Assembly (NCBI GenBank): GCA_001464455.1
Contig: LNEI01000018.1
Location: forward strand, 1 to 64,000
Source: Acidobacteria bacterium Ga0077534
GTDB taxonomy: Bacteria; Acidobacteriota; Blastocatellia; Pyrinomonadales; Pyrinomonadaceae
Direction of reading: 5' to 3'
Length of the DNA: 64,000 bases
Shown here in pieces: positions 4,713 through 49,328 of the stretch. Position numbers and translations under genes: made by a program. Numbering within the stretch: position 1 is the stretch's first letter; each line of letters begins with the position of its first letter. The notes beneath the pieces are model-generated. The model was not told the origin of the DNA and ran no database searches. It was given only the letters and a program-made list of their open reading frames with translations.

Positions 4713-7304
4713 ATGGAACAAAGCCAGAGATGGGATCAGATCAAAGAGCTTTTTGCCGAGTGCGTCGAGCTGCCGGCAGGCGATCGGACCGCCTTTCTTG
4801 ATGCAAAATGCGCCGATGACGTAGAGCTTCGAAAGGAGATCGATTCCCTGCTCGCCGCCCACGAAGCCGATCACAATCTGCTCGAAAATCATTCGATCGA
4901 CCTCGAAGCCAGGGTAATGAAACTTGAACCCGCTTTGGCAGAGCGGCGGTTTGGCAATTACCGGATCGTTCGTGAGATAGGCAGCGGAGGTATGGGTTCG
5001 GTCTTTCTGGCTGAGCGCGACGACGGCGAATTTTCGATGCAGGTCGCGTTGAAGATCGTCCGCCAATCGGTCGCGAGCAGCGAGGTGATCGAACGGTTCA
5101 AGAGCGAACGCCAGATACTCGCCAATCTTCACCACACAAATATTGCGACGCTCGTAGACGGCGGAGTGAGTGCCCAGGGCGAACCGTTTTTGGTGATGGA
5201 GTTTGTCGACGGGCTTTCGATAACGGAGTACTGCGACCGGCAAAACCTATCGGTCAAAGAACGGCTGCGCCTTTTCCTAAAGGTCTGTGCGGCCGTTTCT
5301 TTTGCTCATCGGAATCTTATCGTCCATCGAGATCTCAAACCGTCAAACATTCTTGTCGATCAGGATGGCCAGCCCAAGCTGCTCGATTTTGGCCTTGCCA
5401 AAGCATTTACCGACGATGCCGCTCAAACGCAAACGGCCTTCCGTGCATTTACTCCGGCCTACGCCTCGCCCGAGCAAATTCTGGGGCGCAACATTTCGAC
5501 AGCATCTGATCAGTATTCGCTTGGTGTTCTGCTCTACGAATTACTTACTGGCTCGAAACCATTTAATTTCGACGGACGTTCTTATGACGAGATCGTGCGT
5601 TCGCTGGAAACAAGCGACGTCAGGTCGCCGTCTACGATTGTTCACGGTGAAAAGAGATCGTTGAAACCACTTGCTAAAGATCTGGACAACATCACGCTGA
5701 AGGCTCTCCGTCGCGAGCCCGAACGCCGATATGGCTCGGTCGACGCCTTTGCCGATGACATCCGCCGCCATCTCGAGGGGCGGCCCGTCTCGGCAAGGCC
5801 GAACACCTTTAGCTACCTAGGGTCGCGGTTCATCAAGCGTTACCGGACGCCGGTCGCCGCTGCGGCGTTTGTTTTGCTCGCCCTGATAGGCGGGTTTGCC
5901 GTTGCAGTTTGGCAAGCTCAGATCGCTCGACAAGAGCGTGACAAAGCCGAGCAGCGCTTTCAGGAGGTCCGTCGGCTGTCAACGTCGTTCCTTTTTGAGA
6001 TCGCCCCGCGGATCGAACGGCTGCAGGGCTCGACAGAGACTCGTGAGATCCTGGTGACTCGTGCACTCGAGTATCTAAATACCCTCGCGGCCGAAAAAGG
6101 TAACGACCCCGAGCTGCAGCTCGAACTCGCTCAAGCCTATCAAAAAGTTGGCGACCTCCAGGGCAATCCCGCAAAGCCCAATCTCGGTAACTATCTAGGT
6201 GCGGTCGATAGTTATGAAAAGGCAAGAGAGATCCTGACCACGCTAGAATCCGGTCGTGAAAATAAGCTCAAGATCGCCAAGATCGCTCACGAACTGTCAA
6301 ACATCAGATTTGCCCAAGGGCAGACCAGTCTGTCGATAAACGAATCGCAGAATGCTCACTCGATCTATAAGTCGCTGCTCGAAAGCGAGCCTGAGTCGAC
6401 TGAAATTCTCCTGCTTTTCCTCGCTCAGCAGATAGACCACGCTCATATCTATTCGATCAACAATCAGTATGAACTCGCGATTCCGATGTATGAGTCGGCA
6501 CTTGCGAGGCTGAATAGTATGGATCAATCAGAGCGGTCAACGGCACGATTGACCGCACTCGGAACTGCGTACCTTAGCAACAGCCTGTCATGGGACAGCC
6601 GCCAGGCCGAGGCTGAGGCCGAGAATGAAAAAGCTGTCGCGAAGGCGGAACTTCTTAGGGCTCGTTATCCGCGAGACCCGGAGATCCAGAGAACCGTGTT
6701 CAACGTTTATCAGCTCGCAAGCAGCACCTTCGAGGGGATCAAGAACGAAGTATCATTATCGTTCGCCGAGAAGGCCGTTTCCGCCGCTCAAACTGCTGTC
6801 GACATCGACCCGGCAGACCTTCAGGCACAGCTTTTCCTGGCAAAATCCCGATCCAGACTTGGTATCTCTTTCGCCCTTAATAAACGAGTCGATGAGGCCA
6901 TCTCCCAGCTGACCGAGGCCGAAAGGGCCCTTCGCAGCCTGATAGACCGGGAACCTCGAAACACGATCTACCTTGACGACCTCGGAACACTCTATATTCG
7001 CTTCGGCGACGTCGAGAAAGCTCGTAATAACCTGCCTGCAACACTCGCCGCGTACCAAAAAGCCGCAGAGATCTGTGAACGAATGGTTGGGATCGACGAG
7101 CGAAACCTCGTGGCTCAGAGAGACCTCGCTCAGGCTCTAAAAAGTGTTGGTGTGACTGAAAATAAGCTGGGCATGAAAGCGGAAGCCCGCGCCAGTCTTT
7201 CGAGAGCAAGCACCATCGTAAAGATGCTGCGCGAGAACAATGCTCTTGGAGATTTTGACGAAAAGATCTTTACCGAGATGGACGAATTGCTCGCAAAGAT
7301 TTGA
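4713..7304 (+). CDS. Transmembrane Ser/Thr protein kinase with TPR-like C-terminal region
   Basis: 863 residues. An N-terminal helical segment (1-75) leads into a PknB-type kinase: glycine loop GSGGMGSVF (about 90), catalytic Lys114 in VALK, HRDLKPSN with Asp207, DFGLAK, and an ASPEQ activation-segment motif. A single hydrophobic segment (about 378-400) predicts an inner-membrane anchor, and the remaining ~460 residues are helical repeats resembling TPRs, with recurrent Ala/Leu patterns and several YxxA motifs. All active-site residues needed for activity are visible. It lies 9 bp after the ECF sigma gene, a common pairing in Acidobacteria, suggesting a phosphorylation-linked signalling unit. 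Substrate and signal cannot be read from sequence. Confidence 0.92.
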   Translation: MEQSQRWDQIKELFAECVELPAGDRTAFLDAKCADDVELRKEIDSLLAAHEADHNLLENHSIDLEARVMKLEPALAERRFGNYRIVREIGSGGMGSVFLAERDDGEFSMQVALKIVRQSVASSEVIERFKSERQILANLHHTNIATLVDGGVSAQGEPFLVMEFVDGLSITEYCDRQNLSVKERLRLFLKVCAAVSFAHRNLIVHRDLKPSNILVDQDGQPKLLDFGLAKAFTDDAAQTQTAFRAFTPAYASPEQILGRNISTASDQYSLGVLLYELLTGSKPFNFDGRSYDEIVRSLETSDVRSPSTIVHGEKRSLKPLAKDLDNITLKALRREPERRYGSVDAFADDIRRHLEGRPVSARPNTFSYLGSRFIKRYRTPVAAAAFVLLALIGGFAVAVWQAQIARQERDKAEQRFQEVRRLSTSFLFEIAPRIERLQGSTETREILVTRALEYLNTLAAEKGNDPELQLELAQAYQKVGDLQGNPAKPNLGNYLGAVDSYEKAREILTTLESGRENKLKIAKIAHELSNIRFAQGQTSLSINESQNAHSIYKSLLESEPESTEILLLFLAQQIDHAHIYSINNQYELAIPMYESALARLNSMDQSERSTARLTALGTAYLSNSLSWDSRQAEAEAENEKAVAKAELLRARYPRDPEIQRTVFNVYQLASSTFEGIKNEVSLSFAEKAVSAAQTAVDIDPADLQAQLFLAKSRSRLGISFALNKRVDEAISQLTEAERALRSLIDREPRNTIYLDDLGTLYIRFGDVEKARNNLPATLAAYQKAAEICERMVGIDERNLVAQRDLAQALKSVGVTENKLGMKAEARASLSRASTIVKMLRENNALGDFDEKIFTEMDELLAKI

Positions 7305-29471: not shown

Positions 29472-30566
29472 GTGGCAAAGGTTTTTTCAAAATTTTCGAT
29501 CATCGTTTCGGCTCTTTTCTTCACTGCGTGCTCGACCAGTATCGAGATACCGCAGGGCTTCCCGACCCCGCCGCCGCCCGCCGATGCTAAGCGGCTCGCC
29601 GCGATCAACCTCAAACGCGACCCAACTCTCGAAAGCCAGATCGCGAAGATCGCTGAAGCCGCGAAAGGCAAGGTCGGTGTGGCCGCCGTCGATCTCGATA
29701 CGGGCGACGCGGCGCTTTTGAATGCCGACGACAAATTCCCGATGCAGAGCGTCTACAAGCTGCCCATTTCGATGGCGGTCATGGAGCGGATCCGCCTGGG
29801 CAAAGCCGAGCTTGATGAAAAGATCGGCGTGACGAAAGACGACTTCGTCCGCCCCGGAATGCGTTCACCGCTCAGGGACGCAAACCCGAACGGCGGCGAA
29901 TTCACCATCCGCGAACTGATCCGCCTCTCAATGGTCGAATCCGACGGCACCGCAAGCGACGTCCTGATGCGCGTCGCAGGTGGTGCGGGAGCCGTTCAGG
30001 ATTACCTATCACAGATCGGCATCGACGGCGTCCGCGTCGTTAACACCGAAAAGGAAATAGGCCGCGACTGGCAAACCCAGTTTGCCAACTATGCCACCCC
30101 AACCCAAGCCGCCGAACTCCTACGTTGGCTCGACGTGGCCGCCTCGGACGCAACCGCCAACGACGCGCCTGTCAGAACCGCGAGCGATAGCGACCGGGCC
30201 AATGGGGTCAGTACCGGGAACGATAGTGACCGGGGCTCTCAACCCGCGACACGAGACAACGACGCGCTCACCGAATACCAACTGCTCCTAAAATTCATGG
30301 CCGACTCCAACCCCGGAGCCAAACGCCTCAAAGGCGAACTCCCGCCCGGAACCTACGTCGCCCACAAAACCGGAACTTCTGGGACGCAAGACGGAATCAC
30401 CGCAGCCACCAACGACATCGGTATCATCCGCCTTCCAAATGGCAAGCGCGTCGCTATCGCCGTTTTCGTCTCCGATTCACCGACGGACGAAAAAACACGT
30501 GAAGCCGTCATCGCGAAGATCGCCAAAGCAGTTTGGGACGCATGGAGTCAGAACCGGGAGCAATAG
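29472..30566 (+). CDS. Class A (subclass A2-like) serine beta-lactamase lipoprotein
   Basis: 364 residues with a GTG start. A lipobox (FFTACS, Cys about residue 20) predicts a membrane-anchored lipoprotein. The penicillin-binding serine is in SVYK (SxxK), the second motif reads SDG in place of SDN (MVESDGTAS), and the third is KTG in AHKTGTSG. The segment RDWQTQFANYATP matches the A2 branch (CfxA/PER-like), and the N-TEKE segment likely carries the omega-loop glutamate. An extra segment of about 40 residues lies between the helix ending LLRWLDVAA and LTEYQLLLKF; it is built from two copies of a repeat element (see repeats), and a third copy supplies the stop codon. Resistance role inferred, not proven. 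Confidence 0.85.
   Translation: MAKVFSKFSIIVSALFFTACSTSIEIPQGFPTPPPPADAKRLAAINLKRDPTLESQIAKIAEAAKGKVGVAAVDLDTGDAALLNADDKFPMQSVYKLPISMAVMERIRLGKAELDEKIGVTKDDFVRPGMRSPLRDANPNGGEFTIRELIRLSMVESDGTASDVLMRVAGGAGAVQDYLSQIGIDGVRVVNTEKEIGRDWQTQFANYATPTQAAELLRWLDVAASDATANDAPVRTASDSDRANGVSTGNDSDRGSQPATRDNDALTEYQLLLKFMADSNPGAKRLKGELPPGTYVAHKTGTSGTQDGITAATNDIGIIRLPNGKRVAIAVFVSDSPTDEKTREAVIAKIAKAVWDAWSQNREQ
30171..30198 (+). repeat. Dispersed repeat element, copy A1 (inside the beta-lactamase gene)
   Basis: Sequence GTCAGAACCGCGAGC then GATAGCGACCGGG; one of six copies of a ~29-bp element in the window. Here it codes VRTASDSDR in frame. Confidence 0.75.
30207..30235 (+). repeat. Dispersed repeat element, copy A2 (inside the beta-lactamase gene)
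   Basis: GTCAGTACCGGGAACG then ATAGTGACCGGGG, same orientation and frame as A1, 36 bp further on. Codes VSTGNDSDRG. Confidence 0.75.
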
Positions 30567-30574
30567 CGACCGGG
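30547..30574 (+). repeat. Dispersed repeat element, copy B (over the beta-lactamase stop codon)
   Basis: GTCAGAACCGGGAGC then AATAGCGACCGGG. Read in a different frame from A1/A2 it gives SQNREQ and the TAG that ends the gene, so the element has apparently replaced the original 3' end. Confidence 0.75.
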
Positions 30575-31433: not shown

Positions 31434-31849
31434 AAAAGGCGGGCCCGAAAAAGTCCGCCTTAAAGAGTATGTATTATGTCATGGAACCCAACGCCTTACT
31501 TTTGAATTCCAATACTAATAAACGCCTGGAACGCGCGTTTGTTGCAAAAATGTTTAGCACGGGTTTTGGGACGCATACGACTTGACAGCTAGCGTCCCGC
31601 TTGCAAGTTTGACTCGCTGACTTCAACTCTTTAGACTTCTAATTTGATCTAGTGGTGAGTTATTGCGACTTGCGGCCACGATAAATAAGCGGCTAAACAG
31701 CAGAGAGGTTATCCGGAAAGTATCGCGAACTCTGTGCTTGTTTAGGCGCAGAGTTTTTATTTTGAACCACGGATGGACACAGATGAACACGGATAAAACT
31801 ATCGATCCTGATCTATATTTATCCGTGTCCATCTGTGGTTGATTTTCTT
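31434..31849. other. Intergenic region before metH
   Basis: About 415 bp without a gene. It holds a hairpin just after the toxin gene, another TGGGACGCA copy at 31567, and the large inverted repeat at 31765-31840. I looked for a B12 box or SAM riboswitch core and found neither. Confidence 0.6.
31765..31840. repeat. Inverted repeat hairpin of ACGGAT/GACAC type in the metH leader
   Basis: Left arm: AACCACGGATGGACACAGAT, continuing GAACACGGATAAA (31765-31797). Right arm: TTTATCCGTGTCCATCTG then TGGTT (31818-31840). The right arm is the reverse complement of the left minus one ~10-bp internal unit. It ends ten bases before the metH ATG at 31850. Such ACGGAT-rich arms are seen in many genomes of Acidobacteria, Planctomycetes and related phyla (from memory). 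Confidence 0.75.
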
Positions 31850-34800
31850 ATGAATTTCCTCGAGCTACTAAAAGAGAAAGTAATTGTTTTCGACGGTGCA
31901 ATGGGCACGTACCTTCAGTCGCTCGATCTGTCGATCGACGAATGGGGTGGGCCGGCGTTTGAGAATTGTTCGGAAAATCTGCTTTACACACGGCCCGATG
32001 CCATTGAGAAGGTTCATACCGCGTTTCTCGACATCGGCTGCGATGTGATCGAGACCAATAGCTTTGGCGGCAGCGAGGTTGTGCTGCAGGAATTCGGCAT
32101 CGCCGAAAAGACCTATGACGTGAATCTGCGGGCCGCTCAGCTTGCCAAACGGATCGCGAGCGATTATTCGACGCACGATAAGCCCCGTTTTGTCGCAGGT
32201 TCGATCGGGCCCGGCACCAAGCTGCCTACACTCGGGCACATAACTTATCCGCTGCTGAAAGATGCGTATCGCGAACAGGTTCGCGGCCTTGTAGATGGCG
32301 GAAGCGATCTTTTGCTGGTCGAGACCTGTCAGGATCTCTTGCAGACCAAGGCTGCGCTGGCCGCAATCTTCGAACATTTTGAAAAAAACAAGATCCGCAT
32401 TCCTGTCATCGCACAGGTGACGATCGAGGTTTTTGGAACAATGCTTAACGGGACCGAGATCGGAGCGGCCCTGACAGCTCTCGAGCCGTTTCCGATCGAC
32501 GTCATCGGCATGAACTGCGGCACGGGGCCAAAGCAGATGGCGGACAGTCTGCGGCATCTTTGCGAAAATTCGCCGATCCCGGTTTCCGTACTGCCAAACG
32601 CCGGTTTGCCCGAGGTCAAAGACGGGCAGCAGCATTACGACGAGACGCCGGATAGCTTTGCCGCCCAGGTCGAGCATTTTGCACGCGATTTCGGAGCAAA
32701 CATTGTCGGCGGCTGCTGCGGTACGACGCCGGAACATCTGCGGCAGGTGATCGAGCGTGTTGGCGGAATGTCGCCGAAACAGCGAAACGCTAAACTCGCC
32801 CCATCCGCTTCGTCCATCTATTTCCAACAGCCTTACACTCAGGATGCTTCGTTTCTGATCGTCGGCGAACGCGTCAATGCTTCAGGCTCAAAGAAGATGC
32901 GCGACCTGCTCGATGCTGAAGATTGGGATGGGCTGGTCAATCTCGCCAAATCTCAGGAGAAAGAAGGGGCTCACATTCTCGACGTCAACGTCGATTTCGT
33001 TGGCCGCGATGGCGTAGCGGATATGCACACGCTGGCAGCTAGGCTCGCAACAGCGGTAAAGATCCCGCTGATGTTCGACTCGACCGAATGGGAGAAGATG
33101 GAAGCCGGGCTCGAACACGCCGGCGGTAAATCGATCCTAAATTCGACCAACTATGAAGACGGCGAGGAGCGTTTCCTAAAGGTCCTCGGCCTCGCCAAAG
33201 AGTTCGGTGCAAGCGTCGTCGTCGGCCTGATCGACGAAGACGGCATGGCTCGTTCCTATGAGGACAAGGTCAAGATCGCTCGCCGCGCGTACAAACAGGC
33301 GACCGAATTTGGTATTCCGGGTCATGATATTTTCTTCGACCCGCTCGCTCTGCCGATCTCGACCGGCATCGAAGAAGACCGCAAGAACGCGGTAGAAACT
33401 ATTAACGCCATCAAGACGATCCACGAAGAACTGCCGCAAGCCAACATCATTCTCGGCGTTTCGAATATCTCATTCGGATTGAATCCGGCGGCCCGCGTGG
33501 TTCTTAATTCGGTTTTCCTCCACGACTGTGTCGAGGCGGGAATGAACTCGGCGATCGTAAACGCGTCAAAGATACTGCCGCTGATGCGGTTTAGTGAGCA
33601 TGAGATCGATACCGCACGCGACCTTATTTACGACCGGCGAAAATTTGACGGTGATATTTGCACCTACGATCCGCTAGGCGAATTCTCTACGATGTTCGAG
33701 GGCAAATCGGCACAGTCGATCAAGCCCGACATTTCGAATCTACCGATAGAAGAAAAACTGAAACACCACATCATCGACGGCGAACGCATCGGGTTAGAAG
33801 ATTCGCTAAAAGTGGCGTTAGAAAAATACCCGCCGCTTGAGATCATCAATGACATCCTGCTAGACGGGATGAAAACGGTCGGTGACCTTTTTGGCTCGGG
33901 CCAGATGCAGTTGCCTTTCGTTCTGCAATCCGCTGAGTCGATGAAGGCGGCGGTCAAGTTCCTAGAACCATTTATGGAAAAGGTCGAGGGCTCGAACAAG
34001 GGCGTGATGGTGCTCGCGACCGTCAAGGGAGATGTTCACGATATCGGCAAAAATCTGGTCGATATCATCCTAACCAACAACGGCTACAAGGTAGTAAATC
34101 TCGGCATCAAACAGCCGATCGACGACATCCTGCGTGCCGCCGAAGAAAACAATTGCGACGCCATCGGAATGAGCGGCCTGCTCGTTAAATCGACGCTCAT
34201 CATGCGAGACAATCTCGAACTGATGAACGAACGCGGCATCAACATTCCCGTCATCCTCGGCGGTGCCGCCCTAAATCGCCGCTACGTCGATGCGGACCTG
34301 GTCCCGCTCTATAAAGGCAAATTGTTTTATGCACGCGACGCCTTTGATGGGCTGCATGCGATGGATGAGCTGACGACCGAGTCAGAACCGGAAACGATAG
34401 TGACCGGGGATTTTGCCGCGGGCAGTTCAAACGGCGAGGGTTCCAAAGCCCCGGTCACTATCGTTCCCGGTTCTGACTACTTGGTCGATTCGAACATTGT
34501 TACAGTTTCGGATGCCGAAGACCTAGTCGGCGAAGATGCAAAACTCGGTACAGCCGCCGCTCGTGTTTCGACCCGCTCGACGGGCGATACAACGCACACG
34601 ACCCGATCAGACACAGCGGTGATCGAGCAACCGCCCAAGGCACCGTTCTACGGCTCAAAGGTCGTCGAGATCACTGACCTGACCAAGGTTTTTGAATTCA
34701 TCAATGAGACCGCACTGTTCAAAGGCCAGTGGCAATACAAGCAAGGCCGCAAAACTCCGGAAGAGTATCAGGCCATACTAGAGGAAACAGTTTATCCGAA

Positions 34801-35530
34801 GTTCAAAGAGATAAAGGCTCAGGCTATCCGTGAAAAGCTGCTCGAGGCAAAACTAGTTTACGGCTACTTCCCTTGTTATTCCGAAGGCAACGATCTCGTG
34901 ATCCTTCACGACGACGAAAAGACCGAACGTATGAGATTCACGTTCCCGCGACAGCCGCTGGAACAACGTGGCGGGAAGAATCTGTGTCTGGCGGATTATT
35001 TCAGGAGCGCGGACACTCCTGTCCGCATCGCCGGTTCCTCCGGCGAGACCTCCCTCGCAAGCTTTTCTACCCTCGCCGAAGCGTCGAGCGTTGCGGACAA
35101 GAGTGTCCGCCCTCCAATCGACGTCGTCGCGTTTCAGCTTGTGACGATGGGCCGCAGGGCGAGCGAGCATTCGGCAAAGCTTTTCAAATCAGACAATTAC
35201 ACTGATTATTTGCTTTTCCACGGCCTGTCAGTCGAAGCGGCTGAGGCACTGGCTGAAATGTGGCACAAGCGGATTCGCGAGGAACTCGGCATTGCCGGCA
35301 GTGATGCTCCTGAAATGGCCAAGCTTTTTCATCAGGGTTATCAGGGTTCGCGATTCAGCTTTGGCTATCCCGCGTGCCCGAATATCGAGGACCAGACCAA
35401 GCTTTTCGAACTGCTCCAACCCGAGCGTATCGATGTCGATCTCACGGAAGAGTTCATGCTCGACCCCGAACAATCGACCTCGGCGATCATCGTGCACCAC
35501 CCTGAGGCGAAGTACTTCAATATCGAATAA
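31850..35530 (+). CDS. metH: B12-dependent methionine synthase MetH
   Basis: 1226 residues, close to E. coli MetH (1227). Modules in order: homocysteine-binding with zinc cysteines (NCGTGP and GGCCGTTP, about 300), pterin-binding (ILDVNVDFVGRDG, ~380), cap and B12-binding with the cobalt-ligand His730 in DVHDIGKNL, and the C-terminal AdoMet reactivation domain with RFSFGYPACP. The enzyme methylates homocysteine using methyltetrahydrofolate. ATG 31850 is chosen; the GTG at 31835 lies inside the leader hairpin. Two in-frame inserts are repeat-derived: residues about 844-876 between B12 and activation domains, and about 1052-1088 in the activation domain after CLADYF. Both sit at surface loops, and core motifs remain intact. 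Confidence 0.93.
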   Translation: MNFLELLKEKVIVFDGAMGTYLQSLDLSIDEWGGPAFENCSENLLYTRPDAIEKVHTAFLDIGCDVIETNSFGGSEVVLQEFGIAEKTYDVNLRAAQLAKRIASDYSTHDKPRFVAGSIGPGTKLPTLGHITYPLLKDAYREQVRGLVDGGSDLLLVETCQDLLQTKAALAAIFEHFEKNKIRIPVIAQVTIEVFGTMLNGTEIGAALTALEPFPIDVIGMNCGTGPKQMADSLRHLCENSPIPVSVLPNAGLPEVKDGQQHYDETPDSFAAQVEHFARDFGANIVGGCCGTTPEHLRQVIERVGGMSPKQRNAKLAPSASSIYFQQPYTQDASFLIVGERVNASGSKKMRDLLDAEDWDGLVNLAKSQEKEGAHILDVNVDFVGRDGVADMHTLAARLATAVKIPLMFDSTEWEKMEAGLEHAGGKSILNSTNYEDGEERFLKVLGLAKEFGASVVVGLIDEDGMARSYEDKVKIARRAYKQATEFGIPGHDIFFDPLALPISTGIEEDRKNAVETINAIKTIHEELPQANIILGVSNISFGLNPAARVVLNSVFLHDCVEAGMNSAIVNASKILPLMRFSEHEIDTARDLIYDRRKFDGDICTYDPLGEFSTMFEGKSAQSIKPDISNLPIEEKLKHHIIDGERIGLEDSLKVALEKYPPLEIINDILLDGMKTVGDLFGSGQMQLPFVLQSAESMKAAVKFLEPFMEKVEGSNKGVMVLATVKGDVHDIGKNLVDIILTNNGYKVVNLGIKQPIDDILRAAEENNCDAIGMSGLLVKSTLIMRDNLELMNERGINIPVILGGAALNRRYVDADLVPLYKGKLFYARDAFDGLHAMDELTTESEPETIVTGDFAAGSSNGEGSKAPVTIVPGSDYLVDSNIVTVSDAEDLVGEDAKLGTAAARVSTRSTGDTTHTTRSDTAVIEQPPKAPFYGSKVVEITDLTKVFEFINETALFKGQWQYKQGRKTPEEYQAILEETVYPKFKEIKAQAIREKLLEAKLVYGYFPCYSEGNDLVILHDDEKTERMRFTFPRQPLEQRGGKNLCLADYFRSADTPVRIAGSSGETSLASFSTLAEASSVADKSVRPPIDVVAFQLVTMGRRASEHSAKLFKSDNYTDYLLFHGLSVEAAEALAEMWHKRIREELGIAGSDAPEMAKLFHQGYQGSRFSFGYPACPNIEDQTKLFELLQPERIDVDLTEEFMLDPEQSTSAIIVHHPEAKYFNIE
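34381..34409 (+). repeat. Dispersed repeat element, copy C1 (metH linker)
   Basis: GTCAGAACCGGAAACG then ATAGTGACCGGGG. Codes ESEPETIVTGD in MetH. Forms an inverted pair with C2, 39 bp apart. Confidence 0.75.
34449..34477 (-). repeat. Dispersed repeat element, copy C2 (metH linker, inverted)
   Basis: Reverse complement of the same element: CCCCGGTCACTATCGTT then CCCGGTTCTGAC. Codes APVTIVPGSD. C1 and C2 can base pair almost completely in RNA or single-stranded DNA. Confidence 0.75.
35003..35112. repeat. Second inverted repeat element inside metH activation domain
   Basis: Arms GCGGACACTCCTGTCCGC (35009-35026) and GCGGACAAGAGTGTCCGC (35093-35110) are reverse complements with one mismatch, and each is itself a 6-bp hairpin (GCGGAC/GTCCGC). 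A third palindrome (CGCCGG/CCGGCG) lies between them. The block codes about 37 extra residues in MetH. Confidence 0.75.
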
Positions 35531-47687: not shown

Positions 47688-49328
47688 CTACTTCCTAAAC
47701 ATTGCCAACATCCGATTCGTCACCAAAAACCCGCCAGCGATATTGATTGCGGCGATCAGAACGGCGACGGCTCCTAAAATCGTCGTCAGGTTCATGTCTG
47801 TGCCGCCGAGTTGGAGCATGCCGCCGACGAGGATGATGCCGCTGATGGCGTTGGTGACGCTCATTAGGGGCGTGTGGAGGGCGGGTTTGACGTTCCAGAC
47901 AACCTGATAGCCGACGAAGCACGCAAGCATGAATACAGTAAAATGCGACAGCGTAGAGGCCGGTGCAACGATGCCGATGCCGACGGCGATCAGTCCGACG
48001 ACGGCCAGCAACCACGGGCTAGCTCCTGTGCCTTCGTCATGGCCGTGTCCGCCGGATTTTTTCGGGCTTGCTGCGGCTACGGCGGCACTGCTTTGTGAAG
48101 GAACGCCAGGTTCAGGCGGCGGTGCTGCGGTAACGGCAACGACCGGCGGTGGCCACATCATTTTGCCTTCGTGGAGGACGATTGCTCCTCTCACCACCTC
48201 ATCGTCTAGGTTGATATGGATCTGCGTATCGGCATCGGGTGACCCAGTCGCTATCGCTCCCGGTTCTGACACGGGCGGCTTAGCGAGGTCGGTCAGCAAT
48301 GCAACTATGCACGCACCGTACAGTTGGGATGACATTGACGCCATTCTCGACGGCAGATCGGTGTAGCCGATGATGGAGACGCCTTTGTGTTTTACTACCG
48401 TGCCGGGTTCGGTGAGGACGCAGTTGCCGCCTTGTTCGGCGGCGAGATCGACGATGACCGAGCCGGGTTTCATCGATTCGACCATGCCTTGCGTGATCAG
48501 TTTTGGGGCTGGTTTTCCGGGAATTAAGGCTGTCGTGACGATGATGTCAACCTGCATCGCCTGAGCGGCGAAGAGTGCCATCTCCGCTTTGAGAAAAGCG
48601 TCGGACATCTCTTTGGCATAGCCGCCTTTGCCCTCGCCTTCTTCTTTCTCTTTGATATCGAGATCGAGAAACTCCGCTCCCATGGAAGCGACTTGATCTT
48701 TTGTCGCCGAACGCGGGTCAAACGCCCGCACTATCGCGCCGAGACCTTTCGCCGCCCCGATCGCCGAAAGCCCGGCGACACCGGCACCGATGATCAAAAC
48801 CTTCGCCGGATCGATCTTACCTGCCGCGGTGATCTGACCAGTAAAAAATCGCGGAAAGTGGTTCGCAGCCTCAATGATCGCTCGATAACCGGCAATATTT
48901 GCCATCGCCGATAAAGTGTCCATCTTCTGAGCACGCGTGATGCGCGGAACGCAGTCCATGCCGAAGACCGTGGCCTTTCGCTTCGCCAGCCGGTCGAGCC
49001 TTTCTTTGTTCTGAGCGGGCCAGATGAAGCCCACGAGCGTTGCTCCCTCGTTCAAAAGATCGGCTTCGTGAACACCAAGTTCCTTATTCTCCTCGGGCGG
49101 ACGCACCTTCATTATCACGTCGGAGGCGGCCCAAAGTTCGCGGGTGCCGTCGATCACGGTCGCACCGGCTTCGCGGTATTCGCTGTCGATGGTGTTGATG
49201 CCGTGGCCCGCATGAGACTCGACAACTACATCAAATCCCAGCTTTTTCAGCTTCAAAACAGTCTGCGGAGTCGCAGCAACGCGCTTCTCGCCCGGATGTA
49301 TCTCTTTCGGAATACCGATCGTGGTCAT
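47688..49328 (-). CDS. pntA: NAD(P) transhydrogenase alpha subunit
   Basis: 546 residues from ATG 49328, which starts the family N-terminus ([10 protein letters not shown]); the in-frame start at 49409 is too early. Domain I binds NAD(H) ([22 protein letters not shown] with a Rossmann Gly pattern; [12 protein letters not shown]), followed by a linker and about four membrane segments ([18 protein letters not shown] and onward), as in the fused alpha subunit. The linker around residue 350-365 ([10 protein letters not shown]) is encoded by a dispersed repeat copy. Upstream is the Rieske gene; downstream, three small genes before pntB. Confidence 0.95.
48242..48270 (-). repeat. Dispersed repeat element, copy D (inside pntA)
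   Basis: In the pntA sense the sequence is GTCAGAACCGGGAGC then GATAGCGACTGGGT and codes [10 protein letters not shown], in the same reading frame as the metH C1 copy but a different frame from the beta-lactamase copies. Confidence 0.75.

Follow-up and report, generated by a model that had tools for sequence, protein, structure and literature searches.

What is the palindromic block that lengthens the activation domain of the metH product of Acidobacteria bacterium Ga0077534, and how could such a block have entered a conserved enzyme and left its gene readable? The host gene occupies 31835-35530 on the plus strand of the window, that is, of the whole stretch of 64,000 nucleotides that was analysed, and encodes a cobalamin-dependent methionine synthase whose frame stays open across the insert, as judged from the ORF list and from Pfam matches to S-methyl_trans, Pterin_bind, B12-binding_2, B12-binding and Met_synt_B12. 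We consider it probable that the insert is a non-autonomous derivative of a RAYT transposon which has become adapted to a translated life inside genes. This explanation builds on a repeated family, its in-frame location, a phase lock, an embedded transposase with flanking repeats and covariation in the hairpins, all of which were observed, and it infers transposition, binding and translation of the fusion, no transposition having been observed. That the reading phase is fixed, that the family recurs in many genes and in many species and that a transposase is embedded in host genes goes beyond what had been noticed in this DNA without database searches (hereafter the sequence-only reading).

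Architecture of the metH insert

The element extends over 35004-35115 (112 nt, tips included); it had been placed at 35003-35112, which is off by a few bases, but the element itself is real. On the plus strand it begins with GGAGC, the left tip of its terminal inverted repeat (35004-35008; GGANN in the family form, according to a tip census), followed by the left arm GCGGACACTCCTGTCCGC (35009-35026), which has a 7-bp stem and a 4-nt loop and is read ADTPVR, by an inner hairpin ATCGCCGGTTCCTCCGGCGA (35027-35046), which reads IAGSSGE or, on the other strand, LAGGTGD, and by a variable middle with a second, degenerate inner hairpin (35047-35092). The right arm GCGGACAAGAGTGTCCGC (35093-35110) and the right tip CCTCC (35111-35115) lie on the minus strand; the host strand of this arm reads ADKSVR, and the commonest partner of GGAGC in our sample is GCTCC. 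That the arms are inverted copies with one mismatch and each self-complementary, as claimed by the sequence-only reading, is confirmed, since each has a 7-bp stem of its own. The first inner hairpin is a module common to the family, as supported by the 14-mers CGCCGGTTCCTCCG and their relatives, which recur at 11 places in the sample from the own genome. As a whole the insert forms an inverted repeat with 44-nt arms (35004-35047 and 35072-35115) that are 80% complementary, and no other inverted repeat was reported within 34900-35200. Folded as single-stranded DNA, the 112-nt element reaches -35.6 kcal/mol as compared to a shuffle mean of -18.4 (z -6.78), a value equalled by 0/200 shuffles.

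The insert lies in frame within the Met_synt_B12 match, the activation domain, at a place where alignment shows the length of MetH to vary in solved MetH proteins too. The catalytic RFSFGYPACP, which had been described as intact, is indeed found downstream in the open metH frame. The figure of about 37 added residues holds for the size of the insert, whereas the net gain relative to congeners with a short loop is about 30.

It had also been proposed that two different palindromic families entered this one gene, and this stands. A second, unrelated palindromic element at 34380-34478 (inverted arms 34380-34413 and 34445-34478, no strand assigned), which is presumably the other metH palindrome meant by that proposal, belongs to a separate dispersed family with GGTCACTATCGTTCCCGGTTCTGACT-like arms (24 matches at up to 3 mismatches, 0 in the control). 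In the identical codon-model test described below, 7/22 copies of this second family in the own genome are intragenic, one of the seven with in-frame stops. Two of its copies lie in the window at 30171-30231 and 30547-30571, within an ORF at 29472-30566 (364 aa), one of them in frame (VRTASDSDRANGVSTGNDSDRG) and the other at the 3' end; another, at 48246-48270, reads SEPGAIATG in a minus-strand gene.

Distribution of the family and of the insert

The sequence-only reading would have been refuted by the absence of further copies from the genome together with the presence of the same insert in all related MetH proteins, and neither was found. The own genome (4.2 Mb, 32 contigs) contains 22 arm matches at up to one mismatch (0 in a reversed-pattern control) and 29 at up to three mismatches (3 in the control). 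The 22 matches group into 14 detected elements, pairs as well as solo arms, of which the metH insert is one. Among 10 host ORFs submitted to Pfam were a TrmFO/GidA-type protein, an AMP-binding ligase, leucyl-tRNA and arginyl-tRNA synthetases, an aldehyde dehydrogenase, a GH92 protein, an Fe-S/pyridine-nucleotide oxidoreductase, TatD, AIR synthase and a molybdopterin oxidoreductase. Arms were found in 32/37 genomes of the genus (own included) as opposed to 1/23 other relatives, and a database search also recovered the arm 18-mer in Verrucomicrobiota, Terriglobia and other records. G009 (e.g. C1:74878-74925) has a GCGGACATTCYTGTCCGC subfamily with short spacing, of which few copies were sampled, more of them beside genes than inside.

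MetH was found in 37/41 genomes and 30 loci were obtained (own plus 29 congeners), one of which (L188) is unreadable at the activation-domain loop. None of the 28 readable congener loci carries the insert family at this loop, so the own locus is alone in this respect; the loop is short in 21 (e.g. ASVESGK) and has other, longer additions in seven, including NWPPA...AGGS types. In G011 MetH (L196) this loop contains a small insert of yet another kind, an AAAGGAC tandem (KDKGQRTNNK). At a second place in MetH, after ARDLIYDRRK, the arm family is present in 3/28 readable loci (G010, G008 and G023, the last with a run of N inside the copy), four have something else and 21, the own genome among them, are short. 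Because the arm family sits at two sites in the MetH of different species, metH is inferred to have been entered by it at two places. Comparison of the second place with empty congeners revealed no recognisable target duplication, but the flanks have diverged.

A fixed reading phase

In which phase are the copies read? We sampled 11 species, the own one and G010, G020, G004, G022, G009, G031, G002, G026, G035 and G021. Copies were taken as listed for G000 (own), G010, G022, G031, G002, G026, G035 and G021; three contig-edge places of G020 are left out, G004 is represented by 15 of 27 arms and G009 by only part of its ATTC-type places, and other arm-bearing genomes lie outside the sample. A codon model trained on long ORFs was applied to 180 nt of each flank with the element skipped, and a copy was called intragenic if both flanks gave the same strong frame. 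By this rule 71/114 copies are intragenic (own 10/14, other species 61/100), and 69 of these 71 are read in phase 0, as ADTPVR...ADKSVR, in either orientation. Both orientations share this phase, since inverted repeats form the ends and the span is a multiple of three in most pairs (45/49 intragenic pairs versus 6/18 other pairs). Three of the 71 copies (L214, L230 and L292, with through-frames of 76, 28 and 154 aa) may be non-genic; their spans are not divisible by 3.

Since many phase-locked copies are orthologous, distinct host sites were counted, of which 33/35 are in phase 0 (P 5e-14 against 1/3; P 1e-9 against 0.46, our estimate for stop avoidance alone); the site clustering joined four copies because the RAYT itself had served as flank. 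Avoidance of stops accounts for the phase bias in part only, because among 67 pairs stops occur in 29 to 35 in phases 1 and 2 and still in 8 or 11, depending on the strand, in phase 0. Moreover, solo arms, which are free of stops in every frame, are in phase 0 in 21/22 cases.

RAYT transposases within host reading frames

Of the RAYT queries from the own genome L010-L012, L015 and L016 were usable, the translations of L009, L013 and L014 being in wrong frames and not recognisable as RAYT sequences; it was L015 that found embedded RAYTs. With the own RAYTs, tblastn detected Y1 transposases inside arm-bearing loci, in L222, L243 and L253 within the host ORF and between arms. A search of the genus gave 11 RAYTs at 55% or more identity to the query (the query locus, 100%, included), all inside host ORFs, with open frames of 826-1064 aa except in G036 (361 aa, contig edge). 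The remaining near-full-length matches (26-49% identity) lie, 33/33, in ORFs of 193-346 aa, and two of them have an internal stop, whereas the 11 embedded RAYTs are all without a stop.

The hosts are an acetyl-CoA-synthetase-like AMP-binding ligase (ACS), entered at site b in G010, G061, G023, G026 and G035 and at site a in G022, G003, G017 and G036, and PriA in G004 and G032. In 8/8 proteins tested, Pfam places Y1_Tnp above cut-off in one ORF with AMP-binding/AMP-binding_C or PriA domains; the PriA and site-b proteins have host domains before and after the RAYT. ACAS_N, the N-terminal match, falls below its curated cut-off in both site-a proteins tested. HxH is present in 11/11 embedded RAYTs and, by alignment, Y---NP in 10/11, G023 reading YIENHP, and a pattern search places the family's inverted repeats on both sides of 10/11, with L326 having them upstream only. 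Most genomes are drafts. The assemblies of G022 and G026, in 7 and 2 contigs respectively, are nearly complete, which counts against misassembly. At L325 (G036:C390) the RAYT has site a to its left and a more distant part of the ligase to its right, perhaps through repeat-driven misassembly.

No RAYT is embedded in the own genome, where the genus search hit two free-standing ORFs (214 and 256 aa). Its free-standing RAYTs were considered as a source and rejected, as the hairpins near the eight loci L009-L016 are of other kinds and a GCGGACA arm is missing from all but L013, for which a copy lies in another gene at a distance of about 1.2 kb. Nor is arm number cleanly linked to the presence of an embedded RAYT, since genomes without one can match the arm counts of carriers. 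In three carriers the arm flanking their own embedded RAYT, GCGGACGCCCYCGTCCGC, is also the prevailing one: it makes up 35/37 genome copies in G003, 15/17 in G036 and 33/34 among the arms listed (39 in all) in G017. Against a cognate link, the RAYT-side arms of G026 and G035 are of the GGGGACA/GAGGACA type that is rare or absent elsewhere in the genome. The arms of G023 are mixed (n=43; 17 GGGGACA, 5 GAGGACA, 11 GCGGACA and 10 GCGGACG). Reversed-pattern controls were 0 in all six genomes of this test.

History of the embedded RAYTs and their host loops

In a tree of 19 RAYTs (the 11 embedded and 8 of the 33 free-standing ones) the embedded RAYTs form one clade (98/94), with the PriA copies nested in the ACS site-b group (84/84 within 99/96). 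On the simplest reading of these sequences the RAYT appears to have jumped between host genes at least once. In two pairs that are not saturated, RAYT dN/dS amounts to 0.079/1.99 and 0.094/1.06 (about 0.04 and 0.09), and the host ligase and PriA parts are constrained as well (dN 0.021 and 0.047, dS 0.49 each). RAYT dS at one site thus exceeds host dS (1.99 vs 0.49; 1.06 vs 0.49). Simple vertical descent would not predict this excess, which points to separate arrivals, to exchange or to noise in the estimate. In the ligase tree, where 14/25 inner branches are weak, the site-b carriers are scattered: the G026 ligase groups at 100/100 with those of G022, G003 and G017, which are site-a carriers, whereas the G026 RAYT pairs with that of G035 (96/92).

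Unrelated inserts, e.g. of the SPPYEGGVA...NHPVGE and NWPPA types, occupy the two ligase loops in other congeners, and we therefore infer that several palindromic families enter the loops of this genus; site a consists of only two residues (SG or AG) in four congeners. Some of the site texts taken from ACS (G005, G028, G021 site A) were wrong-frame matches and were ignored, and G036, G060, G023, G002 and G008 yielded no site A. The ligase of the own genome (L339, G000:C18:307400-316500) has another palindromic insert, of the CTCCTTACGAAGGAGGGG... type, at site b (5390-5570); downstream of it the frame is shifted and the ORF stops at 553 aa, the gene being broken or the assembly in error.

But could these elements simply be ordinary REP/BIME-type repeats that fall in genes, with a phase bias due to stop avoidance and descent and with embedded RAYTs as occasional fusions? 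We regard this as unlikely but cannot dismiss it. REPs within ORFs have already been published (PMC3733652, to the extent that this source was available), and many of the intragenic copies occupy orthologous sites. In addition, the database arms from Verrucomicrobiota, Terriglobia and others (n=102) are of mixed phase, with 38 in phase 0, 20 and 17 in the other phases and 27 outside any 150-aa ORF; this phase test, on 80 database loci, carries little weight, as it simply took the longest ORF, a crude rule. However, such repeats would not readily explain why 33/35 sites share one phase, as do 21/22 solo arms that are stop-free in any frame, nor the occurrence of 11 embedded RAYTs at three host sites, in one clade, with open frames and flanking repeats.

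Hairpin ends and covariation

The left GGANN and right NNTCC tips have complementary NN in 41/75 pairs (shuffled mean 20.4, maximum 34), and their commonest species-linked forms are GGAGC/GCTCC, GGAGT/ACTCC, GGACC/GGTCC and GGAAC/GTTCC. In 209 arms, 196 of them with a fully paired stem, the variable stem pair 2 is paired in 206 (shuffled maximum 193) and pair 7 in 198 (maximum 180). The shuffles do not remove relatedness, neither for tips nor for stems; as far as such comparisons can tell, the arm stems are kept by paired changes at two variable positions. A minimal form, GGAAC-arm-GTTCC, is seen in L278.

The tips bear on another explanation, according to which a host-beneficial loop extension is spread between genes by gene conversion, without a transposase. 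The NN are often alike within a genome and differ between species, at orthologous sites too (GGAGC, GGAGT, GGACC, GGAAC), much as in concerted evolution. We nevertheless find gene conversion quite improbable, as it does not account for unrelated palindromic families in the same loops or for a transposase between the repeats, and no function of these loops is known. Finally, a mobile translational-bypass or RNA-spliced element (byps- or IStron-like), whose insert is removed to leave the host protein unchanged, could draw on the long perfect-ended hairpin in the RNA-like strand (the computed fold is that of DNA) and on insertion into conserved genes, but is barely credible and was set aside on the frame and phase evidence, as it needs no multiple of three, no fixed phase and no open frame, all three of which are seen, and 11/11 embedded RAYTs are free of stops.

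A model for a probably RAYT-derived insert

We suggest that a complete element is a RAYT-type HUH/Y1 transposase gene between GGANN repeats, the terminal hairpin having the form GGANN-GCGGACA-CTCY-TGTCCGC, and that short copies have lost the transposase but still possess the repeats. As the embedded RAYT has no stop before it and none of its own, translation of the host gene would produce it as an inner part of the host protein, without need of a promoter. The repeats would fold as single-stranded DNA hairpins to be bound and cut by the RAYT, an inference from the biochemistry of TnpAREP, which cuts such hairpins guided by a foot tetranucleotide (PMC8266576, as far as the accessible part of that paper goes). 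It is by analogy only that an embedded RAYT may cut GGANN hairpins; its expression, cutting and transposition are inferred. A copy is then thought to enter a gene at random phase. Survivors, as inferred from the phase bias, would be those that keep the frame, present the hydrophilic, harmless phase ADTPVR...ADKSVR and sit in a tolerant surface loop, all others being lost, and they may take either orientation in the same phase, as is observed. The enzyme would not have to sense the frame for a phase lock to arise, because frame-breaking insertions would vanish along with their host. We remain evenly divided over a more far-reaching proposal, namely that the transposase gene exists solely as a translated, in-frame inner part of conserved host enzymes and re-enters the same loops repeatedly, that the hairpin ends co-diversify with the transposase and that short in-frame copies lengthen dozens of proteins.

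Relation to known systems

Rickettsia has been known since 2000 to contain palindromes that code for protein. To our knowledge, the mover of these Rickettsia palindromic elements (RPEs) has not been identified. RPEs and the protein-coding palindromes of Wolbachia lie in frame in many unrelated genes, and what is available of the two accounts (PMC10969869, PMC2229807) describes a similar size of about 100-150 bp, terminal inverted repeats, unrelated conserved host genes and a conserved encoded peptide. As a kind, the present family qualifies, being a palindrome in frame in genes for unrelated proteins with a preferred phase. The likeness is one of kind without sequence comparison, and the family differs from RPEs in belonging to another phylum and in having a transposase between the same repeats within host genes.

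With REP/REPIN sequences and their RAYTs the family shares short dispersed hairpins, single or as inverted doublets, a 5' foot motif and, in congeners though not in the own genome, an HUH/Y1 transposase with Y---NP flanked by repeats. It thereby fits a REPtron in its hairpins, singles and inverted doublets, but not in its foot, which is GGANN instead of GTAG, nor in being mainly extragenic, as 71/114 copies are intragenic and largely phase-locked. RAYTs have been portrayed as genes that occur in single copy, pass on vertically and do not copy themselves (PMC8049555, in the portion at hand), whereas here they reside in frame within host genes at three sites. The account in PMC3733652, again known in part, covers two further systems. 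TIR-associated tyrosine transposases (TIRYTs, in TIRtrons), noted in Acidobacteria, likewise lie between terminal inverted repeats, some of which are dispersed as dimers; the GGGGWSAS consensus of many TIRs is absent from our arm sequences, the C-terminal helix-turn-helix of TIRYTs had no Pfam match in 8 proteins, the RAYT segment ending soon after the Y motif, and residence in frame in host genes is not mentioned in that part. Intragenic REPs of Opitutus terrae and others are also read in ORFs, often as dimers adding 20-30 residues, but neither a phase rule nor an embedded transposase is described there. A literature search, mostly at the level of titles and abstracts, found no report of in-frame RAYTs in host genes or of such palindromes.

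Possible in-frame RAYTs beyond the genus

Of 396 genomes of the phylum at least 237 have a RAYT match. From the long-frame cases among the matches listed we took 14 loci and submitted nine to Pfam, and in 7/9 (L391, L394-L399) a Y1 segment shares one frame with a DNA-methylase family (DUF1156, Eco57I type, N6_N4), the host domain being mostly found on one side only and Y1_Tnp being below cut-off in L398. In L393 the RAYT precedes the host domain, and in L400 it is unseen by Pfam. Hairpins flank most of the Y1/methylase cases. The flanks of L391 and L394-L399 are rich in hairpins, with repeated peptides such as NTGIPACALPETQ. We regard these in-frame RAYTs of other Acidobacteriota as a lead, as some of the genomes are G+C-rich and long frames arise easily.

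Implications

By analogy, the system is best read as operating in the manner of Rickettsia palindromic elements, with a candidate for the mover in addition. This candidate is embedded in host genes and bounded by the same repeats, which would open mobility, phase choice and tolerance to direct tests. The RAYT-derived origin of the insert would also alter the view of RAYTs as static, stand-alone, domesticated genes. One survey of Y1 proteins removed 'unexpectedly long' ones as fusions or annotation errors (PMC6006769, so far as its available text states), and our findings suggest that such length filters have discarded real cases. If true, the methylase-embedded RAYTs of other Acidobacteriota would point to a general RAYT lifestyle and not to a peculiarity of one genus.
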